From Halobacteriovorax marinus (GTDB taxonomy: Bacteria > Bdellovibrionota > Bacteriovoracia > Bacteriovoracales > Bacteriovoracaceae), in contig MAAO01000015.1 of the NCBI GenBank assembly GCA_002163155.1, positions 62,001 to 126,000 of the forward strand: a stretch of 64,000 nt of DNA. Direction: 5' to 3'. The notes below the pieces were generated by a model. It was given only the letters and a program-made list of their open reading frames with translations, ran no database searches and was not told the origin of the DNA. This document shows, piece after piece, positions 4,084 to 12,446 of the stretch. A program made the translations under genes and the position numbers. Position 1 is the stretch's first letter. Every line of letters begins with the position of its first letter.

Positions 4084-4935
4084 ATGATTCAAAAGATTAT
4101 TCTAATTTTTCTCATATCCTTTACAAGTTATTCAAACTCAAAAGTTGAAGAGATCATTATCGCGCAAGAGCTAGATACTGAAGAAGTGAATGTCTATTTT
4201 CATAAACTACTACATATGGCCCTTACTAAAACTATTTCAGATTATGGTGATTATAAAATAAAGAAGGTCTACGGTATAAAACAAAACAGAGTCCTTGATC
4301 TCATTAAAAAAGGAATTGTGGATATTTTTTTCACAATGACGAGTAAAGAAAGAGAAGCACAGACACTACCAATACGAGTTCCGTTATTAAAAGGGCTTTT
4401 AGGAGTAAGAGTCTGTCTTTTGAGAAACGCTAAGGAACATATATTTGCTGAAATACAAACTCTTAATCAATTTAAAAAGATGAACTTCTCCATAGGACAA
4501 GGTTACGATTGGCCAGACACTGAAATTCTGCGAGCAAATGGATTAAAAGTCGTTACTGGTCCTAGTCACAAGAGTTTATTTAAAATGCTCATACGTGACC
4601 GTTTTGATTGTTATTCACGGGGGGTTACTGAAGCTCTCATTGAAATAAAAACATTCAAACAATATTCAATGCAGATTGATCCTTACCTATTATTTCGGTA
4701 CAAATCCCCCATGTATTTCTTTGTCTCTAAAAAGAATACGAAACTCGCCAAGAGAATTGAAAAAGGTCTCTTAACGGCCATTGAAGACGGAGACTTTGAG
4801 AAACTTTTTCACAAGCACCACGGTCAACATCTTAAAAATTATAAGTCTAGAAGCAGAAGAGTTTTTGATTTAAAAAATCCACTCTTACCAGTGAAAACTC
4901 CCATTCATAATAAGAAACTATGGCTTGAACTTTAA
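4084..4935 (+). CDS. Periplasmic solute-binding-type protein (SBP family 3-like)
   Basis: 283 residues. A signal peptide occupies roughly residues 1-20 ('IILIFLISFTSYSNS'). The rest follows the plan of family 3 extracellular binding proteins that lack a transporter partner: 'RVLDLIKKGIVDIFFTMTSKERE' (the loop where a ligand is judged), 'SIGQGYDWPDTEIL', and 'LIRDRFDCYSRGVTEALIEI' near 180. Such orphan proteins are common in predatory and marine Gram-negatives and may be sensors or scavenging proteins. No permease or ATPase gene is adjacent. Translation start lies against a large inverted repeat, suggesting regulation at this point. Confidence 0.7.
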   Translation: MIQKIILIFLISFTSYSNSKVEEIIIAQELDTEEVNVYFHKLLHMALTKTISDYGDYKIKKVYGIKQNRVLDLIKKGIVDIFFTMTSKEREAQTLPIRVPLLKGLLGVRVCLLRNAKEHIFAEIQTLNQFKKMNFSIGQGYDWPDTEILRANGLKVVTGPSHKSLFKMLIRDRFDCYSRGVTEALIEIKTFKQYSMQIDPYLLFRYKSPMYFFVSKKNTKLAKRIEKGLLTAIEDGDFEKLFHKHHGQHLKNYKSRSRRVFDLKNPLLPVKTPIHNKKLWLEL

Positions 4936-4946
4936 CTTTTAAAGTG

Positions 4947-4977
4947 AAAAAAGACAGGAGGAGAAACTCCCCCTGTC
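4947..4977 (-). terminator. Rho-independent terminator of the ArsR operon
   Basis: Read on the minus strand: GACAGG-G-GGAG, TTT loop, CTCC-TCCTGTC, then TTTTTT. A strong stem with a U-tract eight to ten bases after the small cysteine-rich gene; it closes that transcript. Confidence 0.85.
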
Positions 4978-4985
4978 CCAAATAG

Positions 4986-5102
4986 CTATTTTTGTTTGTC
5001 GAAGAATTCAGCAACGTGACGTAGTAGTCCTGCTACTTTCGTAGGTGAACAATCACAACAACAGTTACAATCACATTTACTAGTTTCTTTTTCCTTACTC
5101 AT
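4986..5102 (-). CDS. 38-residue cysteine-rich peptide downstream of ArsR
   Basis: Small frame with ATG three bases after the ArsR stop and a terminator just beyond its own stop. The peptide starts MSKEKETSK and then has the cluster CDCNCCCDC: six cysteines in nine residues, followed by an amphipathic tail ending in EFFDKQK. The cluster resembles a minimal metallothionein-like or metal-thiolate site. The ribosome site AGGAGTAA lies at the end of the ArsR frame, so the two are very likely co-translated. Function is inferred from context: a metal-binding or metal-relay peptide under ArsR control. The homologue range cannot be judged here. Confidence 0.7.
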   Translation of the reverse strand: MSKEKETSKCDCNCCCDCSPTKVAGLLRHVAEFFDKQK

Positions 5103-5105
5103 GAT

Positions 5106-5435
5106 TTACTCCTTGGGTGAATCTAAGTGTTCAATGTAGTCTGCCAATTTCCTCAATTCTTCAGCGACTTTCTTTCCATTAATCGAGTACAAGACTTCCT
5201 TGCCCTTCTTAGTGGAAGAAAGAATCTCCGCTTTCTTTAAATGAGTTAAATGACGGGATACAACTGAGAGATCTACATCACAACATGTTGAGATTTCCTT
5301 CACATTGGATTCTTGTCTTCCGGAATGACAACAATCACAAAGGTGTTGGAAAATGGCCAAGCGATTTCGATCCCCCAAAGCTTTAAAAACTTTTCCGAGA
5401 ATATTTAAATTTGGTTTAGAGCAACATTTCTTCAT
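5106..5435 (-). CDS. ArsR/SmtB-family metal-responsive repressor
   Basis: 109 residues from the chosen ATG. A TTG 36 bases further up is in frame but would lie across a putative operator. A winged helix is evident: 'VFKALGDRNRLAIFQHL', recognition region 'STCCDVDLSVVSRHLTHLKKAEI', and wing 'GKEVLYSI'. Cysteines are plentiful: CC near the N-terminus, CDCC in the alpha2 region, and a CC pair at the start of the recognition helix, the position of the metal-sensing ELCVCDL motif in ArsR. That supports thiophilic metal or metalloid sensing. It is the first gene of a two-gene operon with the cysteine-rich peptide. Confidence 0.9.
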   Translation of the reverse strand: MKKCCSKPNLNILGKVFKALGDRNRLAIFQHLCDCCHSGRQESNVKEISTCCDVDLSVVSRHLTHLKKAEILSSTKKGKEVLYSINGKKVAEELRKLADYIEHLDSPKE

Positions 5436-5445
5436 ACATCTATAC

Positions 5446-5493
5446 TTGCATGAATATGCAATTGATTGCAAGACATATTTGCATACAAATGCA
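5446..5493 (-). promoter_or_regulatory. Putative ArsR operators: two TTGCAT-N4-ATGCA palindromes
   Basis: Two dyads with the same arms: TTGCAT-GAAT-ATGCAA at 5446-5461 and TGCAT-ACAA-ATGCA at 5480-5493. Centres are 33 bases apart, close to three helical turns, just upstream of the ArsR ATG. ArsR/SmtB proteins bind dyads in their own promoters, so self-repression is the likely reading. Their position also argues against the upstream TTG start. Confidence 0.6.
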
Positions 5494-5687
5494 TATATAC
5501 TTCATATTGCCACAGCTTGTGGTCTATCAAAGTGCCGATTTGGAGCTATAAAGTGAACTAACAGTCTGAATTCAGTAAGAATATTCTTACGTTCTATAAT
5601 CTTAAGTTAGTATAGAACTCAATAAACTTTCTCAAGAATTAACCGAAAAGTATTGAGTAAATTCAAATATTTAAGGACTGTCTAAAC

Positions 5688-8600
5688 GTGAGAAAATTAA
5701 TAAATATTAATCTATTAACTTGGTCATTGATTTTTACTCAAGTTCTCTGGCCCTATGAAGCTATCGCCAAACAAAACTTAAACGTGGATCAAGAAATTCA
5801 AAACCATGTCATGGCCTTGCAAACAGCGGCCGCTAATCACGCTTCCAAAAGACACTTTGAAAATATAAGAAGTAGAACTGCTGCTCTCGCCAAGAAAATT
5901 AAATCTAAATATCCAAAGAAGGCCAAGGAATTAGAAGATAAAATCCTGCGTCCTATGGCGGGAATGATTAAGGCGAAGGCATCACTCAAGGGTTGTAACC
6001 TTGAAGGACTCTCTGGCGGTATTGGTCTCTCTAGCTTTAAAGGTATTAAGGCCTGTGAAGGAGAGATCTACACTAGTATTGATGTAGATAGTTTTATTTC
6101 AGGAATGGATAAAATATTAGATGAAGCTAAGGGAAATAAATCGACTGCGAAAGATAGAAAGAACTTTGCTGATCTTGTTTATTCTAAAATGAGAAATAGT
6201 GTTATTTCAAAGTACTGGGAAAATAAAGCAATGTTTCAGGGCGAGATGCCTGAAGACTTACAGAAAGCAATTGTAGATGCCCATGGGACAAAAACTATAG
6301 GTTCTGCCTCTACAGGCATGGGTATGGGTTACACAAGTGGAACACAAGAAGTCAGCGCTGGTAAATTTCGAGGGAACCTGGATAAGGAACTTTTAAAAAG
6401 ACTCGCTCTCATACAAGAGCGAACAAAGGGCTTCTCCAAAAAAGATAGAGAAGCCAATAAGAATAAGTATTTTCAAAAAACCAAGGATGACTATAGAGGA
6501 TTAGCTAAGCACTACGATAGAAGTTTCAACATGGAAAGCATGACGAAGATTCTTGATAAGAAGTTTAATCCACACCTTGGAACCTGGCTTGAACCCAACC
6601 GCCCAAAAGTCACCAAAGAAGAAAAGCAGGCCTATGCTTGGGCCAAACATCAAGTGGAAACGAGACAGAGAGCTGCGAACTCTAAACCCGTAAATTTTGA
6701 TGATGACTTTGGAGGTAGTGCTCTAATGATTATCGAACAAAGCGCTCTGGTAAAACCAAAGACTAATGCCTATGACATGCCTATCCTAGGTGCAAAGAAA
6801 ACTGAAACAGCAAATGAAACCGCTAGTAAGGTGGCCATGAAGGTGGCGACTTATATGGAACACAACAAGACGCCTAGTTACCAACAAAGAAATTCAAAAT
6901 ATGCTCCAAGTAGCTTGGGGTTTGACGCTAGATTTAACGAAACTTTAGGCAAGAGAACTCCTAGCAGTACCTTAGACTTTCCAGAAATAGGATCAAGTTC
7001 ACAGGTTTCTGATTATGACACTGTGGTTGTCAATAACGCCATGGAATACTACGGACTTATACCAAAGAAGAATTCAAATAATCCCTATCATAAATTAGAT
7101 GATGATCTAGCGATTGAGAGATCAAAAGAGAGTCCACTTAACGACGCTACTTTTCACTCGGCCATGCCTAGCCCTAGAAATGACTATGACGATGACGATA
7201 AGAAACAATTCATGATCGCAGAGAGAGATATTAGCCTCCACAATAATATTAATAACTACATGGCGCTAAAGCATGGTGTTTCAATAAAAAGAACTAGCAA
7301 GTCCGGTCTTCCTTATAGAGACAATGAAGAAGAATTAGAAGTTAATCCCATTTCAAAAAATAAGAGAAGAGAGTTAGCTAAATATAGAAAGAGAATCATT
7401 CAGGACATGAGTAGTGTTACAAGTGATGATGCAGAAATTGGAAAATTTGGTGTAACAGAAAAACTCGCAGAAGATTGGTTAAATAAGTTTGATAAGAATA
7501 TGGATAAGAATCTTAAACTCTATATGAAGACTTATGGTGGTGTTAATAAAGTTGCTAACACTGGTGACAATGGAATTAAAGTCCATAAGAATCACCCGGC
7601 GATTGTAAAATTAGGAGCTGCTGAAACAAAGAAATCAGGTTCTCCTTATGAGACTCCCCCAACTCTCATAGATCTCGTAAATAAAGCGGGTTCCAACGCC
7701 TACCTCGATATGGGTAAGAACCTTTCAGGAGTGGATCCAAGAATTACTAAAAATGGTCTCTCGTCTTATCTAAGAGATGAAGGAAAACAATCAGCGATTA
7801 AAAGAGATAAACATCAAGCAAGACTTGAGCGAGGAAACTTTCTTATTCACGAAGATAAGAAACTTAGAAATAGTACCTGGAGAGGATTGAATGAATCTGA
7901 ACTAGGTGACGAAGAAATGGATGCTAAAATGAAGCAGGCCTTTTCTGAATACTTTAAAGATAGTGAAACTCTCATGCAGAAACTAGATTCAGAATACACT
8001 TCTGAAAATTCTGGTGATTTCTTAAAAATGGCCATGAAGAATAATCCAGGAATCGTGGGACAAGTTCTAGCAGATCACCCCGAGTACGCGGGAATGACTT
8101 GTAACATTTCTAAAGAGGCCATTGCTGACCAAAAATCTGCACAGAAGTGGGATCGCATTCTCTCAACCGCGGGTCTAGTTCTAGCTGCGGGAAGTATTAT
8201 AATTACAGGAGGAACGGCAGCCTTAGTTCTTGCTGGTGCTGGTATGGCGATTGGTGCCAGGCAAGCGATTAAAAGCACAACGGATTACTTTGATTTAGAA
8301 AATGAATATCAACTAGCGAAACATCACTTAGAAGTCCTAGGACTCGGTAACGATGCCTCAGTTCAAGCGCAGTTAGAAAAAGCAAATGCTAGATTCTATG
8401 ACGCCATTATGGATGGAGCTCTACTTCCTTTTGAAGTCTTTGCTTTTACCCATGCGCTAAAAAGTGCGAAATCAGCTAAAGAGGCCAAAGCACTCATTAA
8501 TGCTGCCGCTAACAGCTCAGACGATGCCATTAGCATTGCCAAAAGTTCTAAACTAAAGCTAGATGAAGTGGCGACAGTTAAAGTAGCTAAAGTCGAATCT

Positions 8601-10232
8601 AAAACGACAACTTTCAATATGAGTGAACTCACTGACACTGTCCCGGTTAAAAGGGCCATATCTTCAAATCATTCAAAAGTGGCAAGGGCGCTACCTAGTG
8701 ATCCCGTAAGCCAACTCAATAGGAAATCAACTTCACTCTTTGAAGTCAAAGAAGGTACGTCTTTGAGAGGAAAACTTAAAACAGCTAAACCAATTTCCAC
8801 AAGCGGAGTAGATGTAATTAAACTGGCTAAGGGAAATAGTTTAGTTAAAGTGAAACAAGCTAGAACTTTTTCAGATAATACTAAAAAGGCGCTAAAGGAT
8901 TTAAGTAAGAAAGGCATGACTAAGTTTGATGACTTCTCATTAGATGTGGCCTCTAACTTAACAGACGCCGAAAGACTTGCCCTGATGGAAGTTAAGAGTG
9001 GGAAACCTCTCTCTACAGCACAGAAGGAACTTATTCTAAAAGCACACAACGTGGAGCTGAGCAAAGGTTTTGGAAACTACACACATGCAGGAAAACGCCA
9101 AAAAATGAAATATCTAAAAGAAGCTTTTCCAAATGATCCAGAACTAAGAAGATACGCTATGAAGAAAGGTATCACTGGTGGTTACGGTGACCTCTCTAAA
9201 GAAGCCGTCACTGCGAGAGCGGATAAATTTATTAAAGCTAATGGTTATGATTTAGATGATCTGGCTGACTTAAAACAATTTCCTGATGACTACGAAGCCT
9301 TCTTAGGTGAGGTGGCAAAACACGGAGATGATACTGCAAAGGCCACTGAACTCTTGGCCTTCACAGATGACTTAGATGTTATTCAAAAGATTTCCTCAGC
9401 CAGTGCTGAGAATGCAGAGATGGTAAAGTTTGTGAGAGCGAATGATATGGAAGCCTATAAGAACGCGCTTCGATCTGCAGAAAGTGGAGAGAGGTTTGCT
9501 CTCTCAGAACTTAAATCTTCCTACACTAGTTTAAAGAAGCAAGTTAAAGCAGTTGAGGGATCATTTGAATCTGGATTCACTAATTCATTTAAAACAGATG
9601 CCGCAAGTTATAAAGGAAAGAATTACACCAAAGGTGAGATGGAAATTAAAAGTGATCTCATGGCAGGAAAACTTATGGAACATCAAAGTCTAAGAAGAGA
9701 CGCTGATTATATGATGAAGACTATTGATGATCCTAATAAAGTTAAAGTCGATTTTACTGGAGACAGTTCAGTAAGAGCGAACGAAATCATGCAAGGTAAA
9801 AGAGGAGCTTACGATTCCGCCTCATCTGTTGATTTCAACTACGGCAGTATAGCCAGTGATTTAAAATCAGCGGAGAAAACTGACCTCGCTTCAAAGTTCA
9901 TCGAGGTGAAAGTTTCTAATTCAATTAATTCTGCCAACAAGGTTGAAACATTAAAAATACCACTAGGAAACGATCGAGTCTGGTTTGATAACTTTAAGAA
10001 GATAGAAAAGTCAGCCAGAGAAGGTAATGAAGTGGCACAGAGAGACTTAAGAAGATCGCTGCTGGAACTCTATAATGACAGTACAGGTAAGTCTGGAAGA
10101 CTACGCTCAAAGATTTCCACTTCAACTCATGACGATTTAATAGATGAATTTCTAGATATTAAAAACGGAAGGAAGACTGTGAGTGAAGAAAAATTTAACC
10201 AAATGATTGAAGAATACGGAAGCATCAAGTAA
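5688..10232 (+). CDS. Very large secreted protein of unknown family (1514 aa)
   Basis: Starts at GTG with AAGGA eleven bases upstream. Residues 1-28 form a signal peptide ('INLLTWSLIFTQVLWPYEAIAK'-type segment). The following ~790 residues are hydrophilic, lysine- and asparagine-rich with many charged helices. Around 822-860 lies one long apolar stretch rich in Ala/Gly ('GLVLAAGSIIITGGTAALVLAG'-like), then another semi-apolar helix near 915-930 ('ALLPFEVFAFTHAL'). The C-terminal ~550 residues are again charged and helical. The mid-protein apolar hairpin followed by a long C-terminal part recalls polymorphic-toxin or pore-forming architectures, but no known toxin motif is seen, so no function is assigned. 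It stands alone between the ArsR promoter and a terminator. Confidence 0.85.
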   Translation: MRKLININLLTWSLIFTQVLWPYEAIAKQNLNVDQEIQNHVMALQTAAANHASKRHFENIRSRTAALAKKIKSKYPKKAKELEDKILRPMAGMIKAKASLKGCNLEGLSGGIGLSSFKGIKACEGEIYTSIDVDSFISGMDKILDEAKGNKSTAKDRKNFADLVYSKMRNSVISKYWENKAMFQGEMPEDLQKAIVDAHGTKTIGSASTGMGMGYTSGTQEVSAGKFRGNLDKELLKRLALIQERTKGFSKKDREANKNKYFQKTKDDYRGLAKHYDRSFNMESMTKILDKKFNPHLGTWLEPNRPKVTKEEKQAYAWAKHQVETRQRAANSKPVNFDDDFGGSALMIIEQSALVKPKTNAYDMPILGAKKTETANETASKVAMKVATYMEHNKTPSYQQRNSKYAPSSLGFDARFNETLGKRTPSSTLDFPEIGSSSQVSDYDTVVVNNAMEYYGLIPKKNSNNPYHKLDDDLAIERSKESPLNDATFHSAMPSPRNDYDDDDKKQFMIAERDISLHNNINNYMALKHGVSIKRTSKSGLPYRDNEEELEVNPISKNKRRELAKYRKRIIQDMSSVTSDDAEIGKFGVTEKLAEDWLNKFDKNMDKNLKLYMKTYGGVNKVANTGDNGIKVHKNHPAIVKLGAAETKKSGSPYETPPTLIDLVNKAGSNAYLDMGKNLSGVDPRITKNGLSSYLRDEGKQSAIKRDKHQARLERGNFLIHEDKKLRNSTWRGLNESELGDEEMDAKMKQAFSEYFKDSETLMQKLDSEYTSENSGDFLKMAMKNNPGIVGQVLADHPEYAGMTCNISKEAIADQKSAQKWDRILSTAGLVLAAGSIIITGGTAALVLAGAGMAIGARQAIKSTTDYFDLENEYQLAKHHLEVLGLGNDASVQAQLEKANARFYDAIMDGALLPFEVFAFTHALKSAKSAKEAKALINAAANSSDDAISIAKSSKLKLDEVATVKVAKVESKTTTFNMSELTDTVPVKRAISSNHSKVARALPSDPVSQLNRKSTSLFEVKEGTSLRGKLKTAKPISTSGVDVIKLAKGNSLVKVKQARTFSDNTKKALKDLSKKGMTKFDDFSLDVASNLTDAERLALMEVKSGKPLSTAQKELILKAHNVELSKGFGNYTHAGKRQKMKYLKEAFPNDPELRRYAMKKGITGGYGDLSKEAVTARADKFIKANGYDLDDLADLKQFPDDYEAFLGEVAKHGDDTAKATELLAFTDDLDVIQKISSASAENAEMVKFVRANDMEAYKNALRSAESGERFALSELKSSYTSLKKQVKAVEGSFESGFTNSFKTDAASYKGKNYTKGEMEIKSDLMAGKLMEHQSLRRDADYMMKTIDDPNKVKVDFTGDSSVRANEIMQGKRGAYDSASSVDFNYGSIASDLKSAEKTDLASKFIEVKVSNSINSANKVETLKIPLGNDRVWFDNFKKIEKSAREGNEVAQRDLRRSLLELYNDSTGKSGRLRSKISTSTHDDLIDEFLDIKNGRKTVSEEKFNQMIEEYGSIK

Positions 10233-10873: not shown

Positions 10874-10897
10874 GACTTAAGTCCTATTCTTTTTTCT
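10869..10897. terminator. Terminator between convergent genes
   Basis: AATAGGACTTAAGTCCTATT is a perfect palindrome followed by CTTTTTTC on the plus strand. It overlaps the last codons of the convergent serine hydrolase gene. Confidence 0.75.
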
Positions 10898-12446
10898 TTA
10901 AGAAATACTTCAAGCTTCCCTCAATCACTGAGAAGAACTTACCCTGATTGACAGCTTTTTTAGTATCATTTTGGGAAGCAATAAAACATGATCGCTCATC
11001 TTTACTCTTTAAGAGATAGGCCATAAAGATTACTCCAGGTTCACTCCCCCCTTTATATCCCGCATACTCACTTAAGTCTTTTGCAACAAATGGTGCATTA
11101 TAAGAAAGTATTTTTAAAACTTGCTCACTCTTTGTTTCATCTAATTTTTCAAGCAAACGACAAATATCAGTTGCCGAGGCAAACCACTCAATACTGCTTA
11201 TATACTTGGGAGTGTTTCCCCATGCTTGAATTCCTTTAATCAATTCTTCGCGAGGAACTTGTTTCAACTTATTCAACATAAGTAGTCTTTCATTTCTATT
11301 TGCTGATTTATACTTCTTTACATCAGTTTTTGAAAAGAGCGCTCTGGTTCTAAACATTTCCATGGTTGAGAGAAATGGTATATTACCGCTGTTTTCAACA
11401 CCCAGAGATTTAACAACCTTCTCAACACTTTCTTTACCAATTAAGTCTAAGAGGTGATCAGTGGCAGTATTATCAGAGATTTCAATCATCTTTCTCGCAT
11501 ACTCATAGATTTCTCGAGTCTCACCCGCTGGAATGTTTTGCATAACACCTGAAGGAAAGGATTTGAGCTCCTCTTTAATAGCTAGAGGTGTTTTCCAAGT
11601 AAGTTCACCTTTTGTAATTTTATCTTCAAGTGTGAGTAGAATAAATAATTTAAAGGCAGATCCAAGTGCAAAATCTTCACTAGCATTAATAGCAAAATTC
11701 AAATCTTGCCCGTACTTTTTAAAGTACATCATTTTTCTTCCGGGCATCTTTTCTAAAAGACTCTTTAATTGGGCATCACTTTTAATATCAACTTTAGGAG
11801 TATCTTCGCCTTTAAAGAGAAGTCCTGAAATAAGACGAGTTTTGTGATCTAGATTCAAAGAAAAGTTTAGTTTTTTTGAGTGTTCCGTTTTCAATGTCCC
11901 AGCATCACCGCTGCTGATTTTTAATTTATACGACTTGCACTCTCCATATTCAGCATAAATCCCCTTAGTAATTTGAGCAAACTGCTCTAGGGGCACGGCC
12001 TTAACAAAGGCTGGAGTAAAGTGTTTTTCATATTCAATTTTAGAATTCTTTTTAAAAAGACCACAAATATAACTAGCTTGTTTTTCAATCTCACCATCAA
12101 GGCTAGATGAATCTACAAATAGTAGTCCTGTGATCAACTCACTACTACTTATATAAATAGAGAGGTTATTGATAATTTTAGAAGTTTGAACTTTTACCAG
12201 TGCTGACTTATTTTCTAAAACTTCAAAAGTGACTTTCTCACACTTTCCAAAATCTTCTCTAAGTCCTTTAAAAAAATCATTGTGACTATTAATAGGAAAG
12301 GCCTTTCTAAAACTCTCCCCAGCGTTACTTATATATTCACTCTTAGAAATACTTTCATTATAACTCTTACAAATAAAATCAGAGCTCTTTTGAAAGTCAG
12401 CAAATGTACTAGTCATTAGAAATAAAAATAAGAGTATTACTTTCAT
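10884..12446 (-). CDS. Class A beta-lactamase-like serine hydrolase with two N-terminal accessory domains
   Basis: 520 residues with signal peptide (1-16). Residues about 20-110 and 118-212 are two similar units, each with a Cys near the start, a 'GKCE/GECKSY' segment and an 'ISGLLF' end, resembling DUF3887-like modules. The C-terminal ~290 residues form a beta-lactamase2-type serine hydrolase: SxxK as S263-A-F-K266, SDN at 324-326, and KGG at 465-467 replacing KTG. All three catalytic boxes are present, so an active acyl-serine enzyme on peptidoglycan or a beta-lactam is plausible, though true class A lactamases have about 260 residues. The start overlaps the stop of the YkgJ-like gene by one base (TAATG). 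Confidence 0.85.
   Translation of the reverse strand: MKVILLFLFLMTSTFADFQKSSDFICKSYNESISKSEYISNAGESFRKAFPINSHNDFFKGLREDFGKCEKVTFEVLENKSALVKVQTSKIINNLSIYISSSELITGLLFVDSSSLDGEIEKQASYICGLFKKNSKIEYEKHFTPAFVKAVPLEQFAQITKGIYAEYGECKSYKLKISSGDAGTLKTEHSKKLNFSLNLDHKTRLISGLLFKGEDTPKVDIKSDAQLKSLLEKMPGRKMMYFKKYGQDLNFAINASEDFALGSAFKLFILLTLEDKITKGELTWKTPLAIKEELKSFPSGVMQNIPAGETREIYEYARKMIEISDNTATDHLLDLIGKESVEKVVKSLGVENSGNIPFLSTMEMFRTRALFSKTDVKKYKSANRNERLLMLNKLKQVPREELIKGIQAWGNTPKYISSIEWFASATDICRLLEKLDETKSEQVLKILSYNAPFVAKDLSEYAGYKGGSEPGVIFMAYLLKSKDERSCFIASQNDTKKAVNQGKFFSVIEGSLKYFLKKKE

Follow-up and report, generated by a model that had tools for sequence, protein, structure and literature searches.

The window, meaning here the whole 64-kb stretch of Halobacteriovorax marinus DNA that was analysed, contains a compact two-gene unit that is read along the minus strand from 5494 down to 4951. 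Encountered in that direction are two operator dyads, a gene for an ArsR-type regulator, an open reading frame (ORF) for a cysteine-rich peptide, and then a terminator. These features, along with the associated signals, are as follows:

5479..5494, no strand assigned: start-distal operator dyad, TTGCAT-ACAA-ATGCAT, its centre 33 bp from that of the proximal dyad
5466..5471, minus strand: putative -35-like hexamer TTGCAA between the dyads, picked by eye from the promoters of 18 loci; its -10 would overlap the proximal dyad
5446..5461, no strand assigned: start-proximal operator dyad, TTGCAT-GAAT-ATGCAA
5106..5435, minus strand: arsR, ArsR/SmtB-type repressor of 109 aa, with its ATG at 5435 and its stop ending at 5106
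5109..5114, minus strand: AAGGAG, the peptide's Shine-Dalgarno, which overlaps the final codons of arsR
4986..5102, minus strand: ORF of the cysteine-rich peptide, 38 aa, with a cysteine cluster (C10-C18) followed by an amphipathic helix (residues 20-37)
4951..4979, minus strand: intrinsic terminator at the end of the two-gene unit

The terminator (4979-4951) consists of 13 pairs followed by a U-run, with a 41-nt fold of -20.7 kcal/mol and a z of -4.55 against shuffled controls. The unit moreover is closed, as the long ORFs that flank it, 4084-4935 and 5688-10232, are on the plus strand. A preceding sequence-only reading of this DNA had described regulator, paired dyads, peptide, and strong terminator as forming one unit, an observation which holds for the minus strand. 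A leader-peptide or attenuator role for the small ORF was considered and rejected, since this ORF is located after arsR and before the terminator, with no same-strand gene behind it. Elsewhere in the window, the ORF at 5688-10232 encodes 1514 aa with no Pfam match, the product of 10884-12446 (520 aa) has a long N-terminal part ahead of a beta-lactamase family domain (PF13354, 77.1 bits), and 298-2892 contains adjacent genes of an ABC transporter, one for an ATPase and two for permeases of ABC2_membrane_6 type.

The regulator passes the NCBIfam ArsR/SmtB cut-off (NF033788, 64.1 bits versus 55) as well as that of PF12840 (36 versus 27), though it does not reach that of PF01022 (18.2 versus 22). 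Its AlphaFold model (pLDDT 87.5) displays a winged-helix fold with a C-terminal alpha5, residues 87-104, which is the helix that helps to pair subunits in ArsR/SmtB proteins. The best PDB matches of that model are CzrA and CadC; taking sequence and fold together, the regulator's closest relatives of solved structure are CzrA, SmtB, and CadC. Orthologues were sought using a profile of nine ArsRs against 129 genomes of the family (Bacteriovoracaceae-type), 45 of which were matched at E 1e-10; among the matches, 18 places stand apart at 125 bits or more, with the next found at 80. In these 18 close orthologues, Cys 33 and Cys 35 are kept in 17, and Cys 51 and Cys 52 in all. A C-terminal CC is present as well in 12 of the 18 but is absent from the window's ArsR. 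In an ArsR tree of 34 selected rows, which leaves 19 of its 31 inner branches open, the peptide-bearing ArsRs cluster (2 changes versus 11.4 upon shuffling).

A small cysteine-rich ORF is found directly 3' of arsR in every one of the 18 orthologues, at offsets of -8 to +20 nt relative to the stop of arsR. The window's version, MSKEKETSKCDCNCCCDCSPTKVAGLLRHVAEFFDKQK, read from 5102 to 4986, has the 38 residues originally reported for it, with six cysteines over the nine residues of CDCNCCCDC, that is, a high cysteine content (6 of 38) arranged as CxC and CC motifs. Sixteen of the 18 peptides also have in common a C-terminal helix block, with consensus VA.FLRHVAEFFDK; these peptides are 33-53 aa long with 4-8 cysteines that are loosely spaced. 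The other two, at L029 and L043, stop after their cysteine part and have no helix, with that of L043 (1766-1900) possessing 11 cysteines in 30 aa. A profile of the 16 helix-bearing peptides, when run against the 129 family genomes along with 368 genomes of the phylum, returned only the 16 genomes it came from, with no copy away from ArsR; since the profile was built from those same peptides, this result speaks to absence elsewhere rather than serving as independent recall. Searches of plasmids for ArsR and of plasmids and phages for the peptide yielded no match, and a search of viral contigs for ArsR yielded one weak ArsR of 38% identity. Outside of the family, an ArsR like that of L043 is followed by a 33-aa, helix-less peptide with 12 cysteines (L071, 1819-1920), and no cysteine-rich peptide was found after the ArsRs of L072 and L074. 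The divergent ArsRs of L043 and L071, with their helix-less peptides of 11-12 cysteines, may be viewed as representing a second peptide type built on the same plan.

Could such a short ORF, matching no annotated family, simply be a chance or otherwise non-functional reading frame? Its brevity and its lack of family matches are what one would expect of such a frame. The peptide, however, is conserved at all 18 loci, is preceded at all 18 by its own ribosome site, and shows a pooled pN/pS (three same-genus pairs) of 0.19, versus 0.18 for ArsR, though one pair taken alone, L031/L032, gives 0.38 for the peptide. We consequently reject this explanation, given the conserved frame and the pN/pS, and view its probability as negligible. 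The earlier proposal had named as its own refutation the lack of a conserved peptide frame in relatives, and instead that frame is kept throughout, with a pN/pS as low as that of ArsR.

The manner in which the two genes would be expressed appears to favour the peptide. Across the 18 loci, the 18 nt preceding the peptide start form duplexes with the anti-Shine-Dalgarno at energies between -5.4 and -11.4 kcal/mol, and the 18 nt preceding the ArsR start at energies between -3.2 and +2.2 kcal/mol. That is, a strong ribosome site (AAGGAG in the window) precedes the peptide at all 18 loci and none precedes ArsR. Translational coupling of the two genes, as had also been suggested, fits with the 3 nt separating arsR stop from peptide start in the window and with overlap at 5 of the 18 loci, but fits less well with gaps of up to 20 nt at other loci and with every peptide having its own Shine-Dalgarno. 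A consensus scan for a sigma-70 promoter at this site found none. By eye, however, many of the 18 promoters have a -35-like TTGAAA, TTGACA, or TTGCAA between the dyads, along with a -10-like hexamer lying within the proximal dyad or immediately behind it, a position which would place the transcript start near the ATG, i.e., a leaderless arsR. Given a strong peptide ribosome site, a weak ArsR site, and this seemingly leaderless arsR, the peptide should be made in excess over ArsR and probably is the main product of the operon. Folding energies of the 60 nt 3' of the peptide reach -17 kcal/mol or below in 16 of the 18 loci, with the shuffle control pertaining to the window locus only.

The proximal dyad (5446-5461) reads TTGCATGAATATGCAA and the distal dyad (5479-5494) reads TTGCATACAAATGCAT; both have the same inner arms, TGCAT and ATGCA, with centres 33 bp apart. 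The pattern TGCATN4ATGCA occurs twice in the 64 kb versus an expected 0.07, and none of 100 shuffles reached two, so the initial report of identical-armed dyads, 33 bases apart over the arsR promoter, stands. In 16 of the 18 orthologous promoters there are two dyads of the TTGCA-N6-TGCAA type, neither having more than one mismatch, and with centres 31-41 bp apart; the promoters of L035 and L043 have one dyad only. The strict pair pattern is found in 16 of the 129 family genomes, 14 of which are ArsR-bearing with the match at the ArsR promoter, and the remaining two (G077 and G022) of which are unrelated. A looser core pattern matches 18 of 129 genomes, 12 with ArsR and six without (G022, G064, G067, G075, G077, and G102), and those six ArsR-less matches indicate that the looser core by itself has a background. 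Within the window's own genome the operator pair occurs once, at this locus, and TTGCATN4ATGCAW occurs nowhere else, though single or weaker operators may exist. A wide regulon was tried as an idea and dropped, as sites with two mismatches number 162 in the genome versus 94 in a reversed control and are not readable as a target list. One relative, G026, has the strict pair at its ArsR promoter and at a second place as well (C13; L188:801-1547), there before a SAM methyltransferase whose best NCBIfam match is UbiE/MenG (80.6 bits, below cut-off); this UbiE-like enzyme is a probable second target of the paired operators in that relative.

Regulation of a small cysteine-rich protein by an ArsR/SmtB repressor has precedent in cyanobacteria, with the SmtB-SmtA and AzuR-NmtA systems, in which the repressor controls a metallothionein (PMC8790569). 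The resemblance extends to inverted-repeat operators near the promoter, but according to that source smtA and smtB are divergent and azuR and nmtA are unlinked, whereas here there is one operon with the repressor first; their operators, furthermore, are 12-2-12 versus a 6-4-6 core, present twice, in the present case. The peptide also differs from SmtA and NmtA in carrying an alpha5-like helix and in matching no metallothionein model, the latter being so for all 16 helix-bearing peptides with regard to NCBIfam and Pfam; nor did searching those databases with the peptide return anything convincing. The suggestion of a minimal metallothionein therefore survives as to composition and regulation, both of which fit, but not as membership in a known metallothionein family. 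Also weighing against a thionein-like role are how few cysteines the helix-bearing peptides have and how loosely these are spaced, the lack of the helix in the peptides of L029, L043, and (outside of the family) L071, and a lack of enrichment of acr3 and over-cut-off ArsM in peptide genomes. A different comparison is with CopL-type cysteine-rich metal-binding regulatory peptides (NCBIfam NF033807), which similarly are small proteins tied to a metal response, but that model matches only 2 of the 16 peptides, with a best E of 0.052, and CopL-type peptides are not known to be paired with an ArsR. No paper describing an operon that joins an ArsR to such a cysteine-rich peptide turned up in the literature searched, and a search combining 'Bacteriovorax' with 'metallothionein' gave 0 papers.

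AlphaFold predicts residues 20-37 of the peptide to be helical with a confidence near 86, versus near 55 for the first 20 residues. When 15 residues of this helix are scored against every window in the 18 ArsRs, the best match, unexpectedly, is to alpha5, with a score of 26.9 versus 9.6 for the next unrelated window (mean -13.5, sd 8.3), and the core in common is A..LR.[LV]A[DE]. Against the best C-terminal windows of other ArsRs, five sister ArsRs score 19-24 and five others 2-12. This resemblance suggests that the peptide may also bind its regulator, and it lends indirect support to the earlier suggestion of a metal donor for the sensor, which had been made without knowledge of the helix.

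It could be instead that this is an ordinary small thiol peptide whose helical tail only pairs with itself or touches the membrane, the likeness of that tail to alpha5 being a convergence of short amphipathic helices. The best PDB matches of the peptide profile are in fact designed antiparallel coiled coils, and some hydrophobic positions of the peptide have no counterpart in alpha5. Such convergence nonetheless strikes us as improbable, as just 1 of 3000 hydrophobicity-preserving shuffles reached the observed alpha5 score (p about 0.0003; this null was drawn from eight of the 16 peptides and eight of the 18 ArsRs) and as the likeness is limited to the peptide's own ArsR clade and its sisters rather than extending to other ArsRs. 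A second alternative is that regulation of ArsR, rather than detoxification, is the primary role of the peptide, with its helix replacing or bracing alpha5, i.e., as an anti-repressor, co-repressor, or metal donor, and with the cysteine cluster only carrying the signal. That the likeness is clade-specific, that the peptide is never found away from ArsR, and that a single operator pair in the window's genome leaves little else to regulate are all as would be expected of a regulator; less readily so are cysteine-only versions at two family ArsR orthologues as well as at L071, and that helices score no better with their own ArsR than with swapped partners (27.44 versus 27.45, p 0.52). We view this alternative as rather unlikely. 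The equivalence of own and swapped pairs means also that no lineage-specific co-evolution of helix and ArsR is visible, and on that basis a recent gene conversion between alpha5 and peptide was rejected. Related, and only slightly less doubtful, is the idea of a detached, cysteine-tagged ArsR dimer helix which, once induced, replaces alpha5 in an ArsR protomer or braces the dimer, such that the metal-loaded form switches the repressor in trans; no such switching by a detached helix was found for ArsR proteins in the literature searched.

As to what ArsR might sense, sister ArsRs with similar half-sites are followed by ArsM (L084, L086), ACR3 (L085), or HgcA (L081), each over cut-off. In the last of these, a Myxococcota MAG contig (JASJCT010000158.1; L081:243-2110), the sister ArsR is followed by HgcA (432.5 bits, cut-off 275) and then by a ferredoxin-like ORF that resembles HgcB. 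ArsR-like genes are described upstream of hgcAB, with one responding to arsenic, in PMC7438021 and PMC10349881. Our sisters before hgcA or arsM (L081, L084, and L086) have SVVSRHL, LR..AD, and TTGCA..GCAA-like sites in common with the present ArsRs, but regulators of that type control methylation or efflux genes, and no cysteine-rich peptide was seen after the sister ArsRs, L081-L086. The window locus itself is beside neither hgcAB nor arsM, such neighbours occurring only with the sisters. From this kinship and neighbourhood, arsenite or a similar soft, thiophilic ligand is the leading guess.

Across the 129 genomes, ArsM-like proteins that fall below the ArsM cut-off are encoded by nine of the 18 peptide genomes versus 12 of the remaining 111 (Fisher p 0.0003, with no kinship correction); the nine examined are 348-371 aa long, are found in the window's genome (C12:168568-169278; L238:2542-3618) and eight peptide-bearing relatives, and in one case, G091, adjoin ArsS. 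Over-cut-off ArsM is not enriched (1/18 versus 6/111), nor is acr3 (4/18 versus 53/111, Fisher p 0.07). Within the window's genus, four congeners do not have the arsR-peptide unit by ArsR and peptide profile searches, and all four have acr3, the reverse of the window's genome, but this pattern is anecdotal; compensation for missing arsenite efflux was rejected as an explanation of the unit.

The reading that we favour, and hold to be reasonably probable, is of a self-regulated, thionein-like two-gene unit. ArsR would sit upon the two dyads over its own promoter, repressing both arsR and the peptide gene. It would be released once its cysteines bind a thiophilic metal(loid), for which As(III) or some comparable soft ligand is the likeliest candidate. 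The peptide would then accumulate by way of its strong ribosome site, ArsR having almost none, and its cysteine cluster would bind the metal(loid) as a metallothionein does. The C-terminal helix in turn would allow the peptide either to self-pair or to attach to a subunit of ArsR and, in the latter case, metal might pass between peptide and ArsR, or the induced peptide might tune the repressor.

An arsR-peptide operon thus is conserved within a bacterial family related to known predators, and it defines a small-protein family which is matched by no Pfam or NCBIfam model and whose members, being short, may be missed by gene callers. The peptide operon is the regulator's only visible paired target in the window's genome and, with one repressor, one operator pair, and one product, function here should be unusually testable. 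The ligand of this ArsR clade matters beyond the family as well, since related ArsRs adjoin arsenic and mercury methylation genes. Should the alpha5-like helix bind ArsR, then the sensor would be informed directly by its own metal buffer and, should the detached-helix idea be correct, then a metal buffer and a feedback signal would be combined in a single 38-residue molecule.
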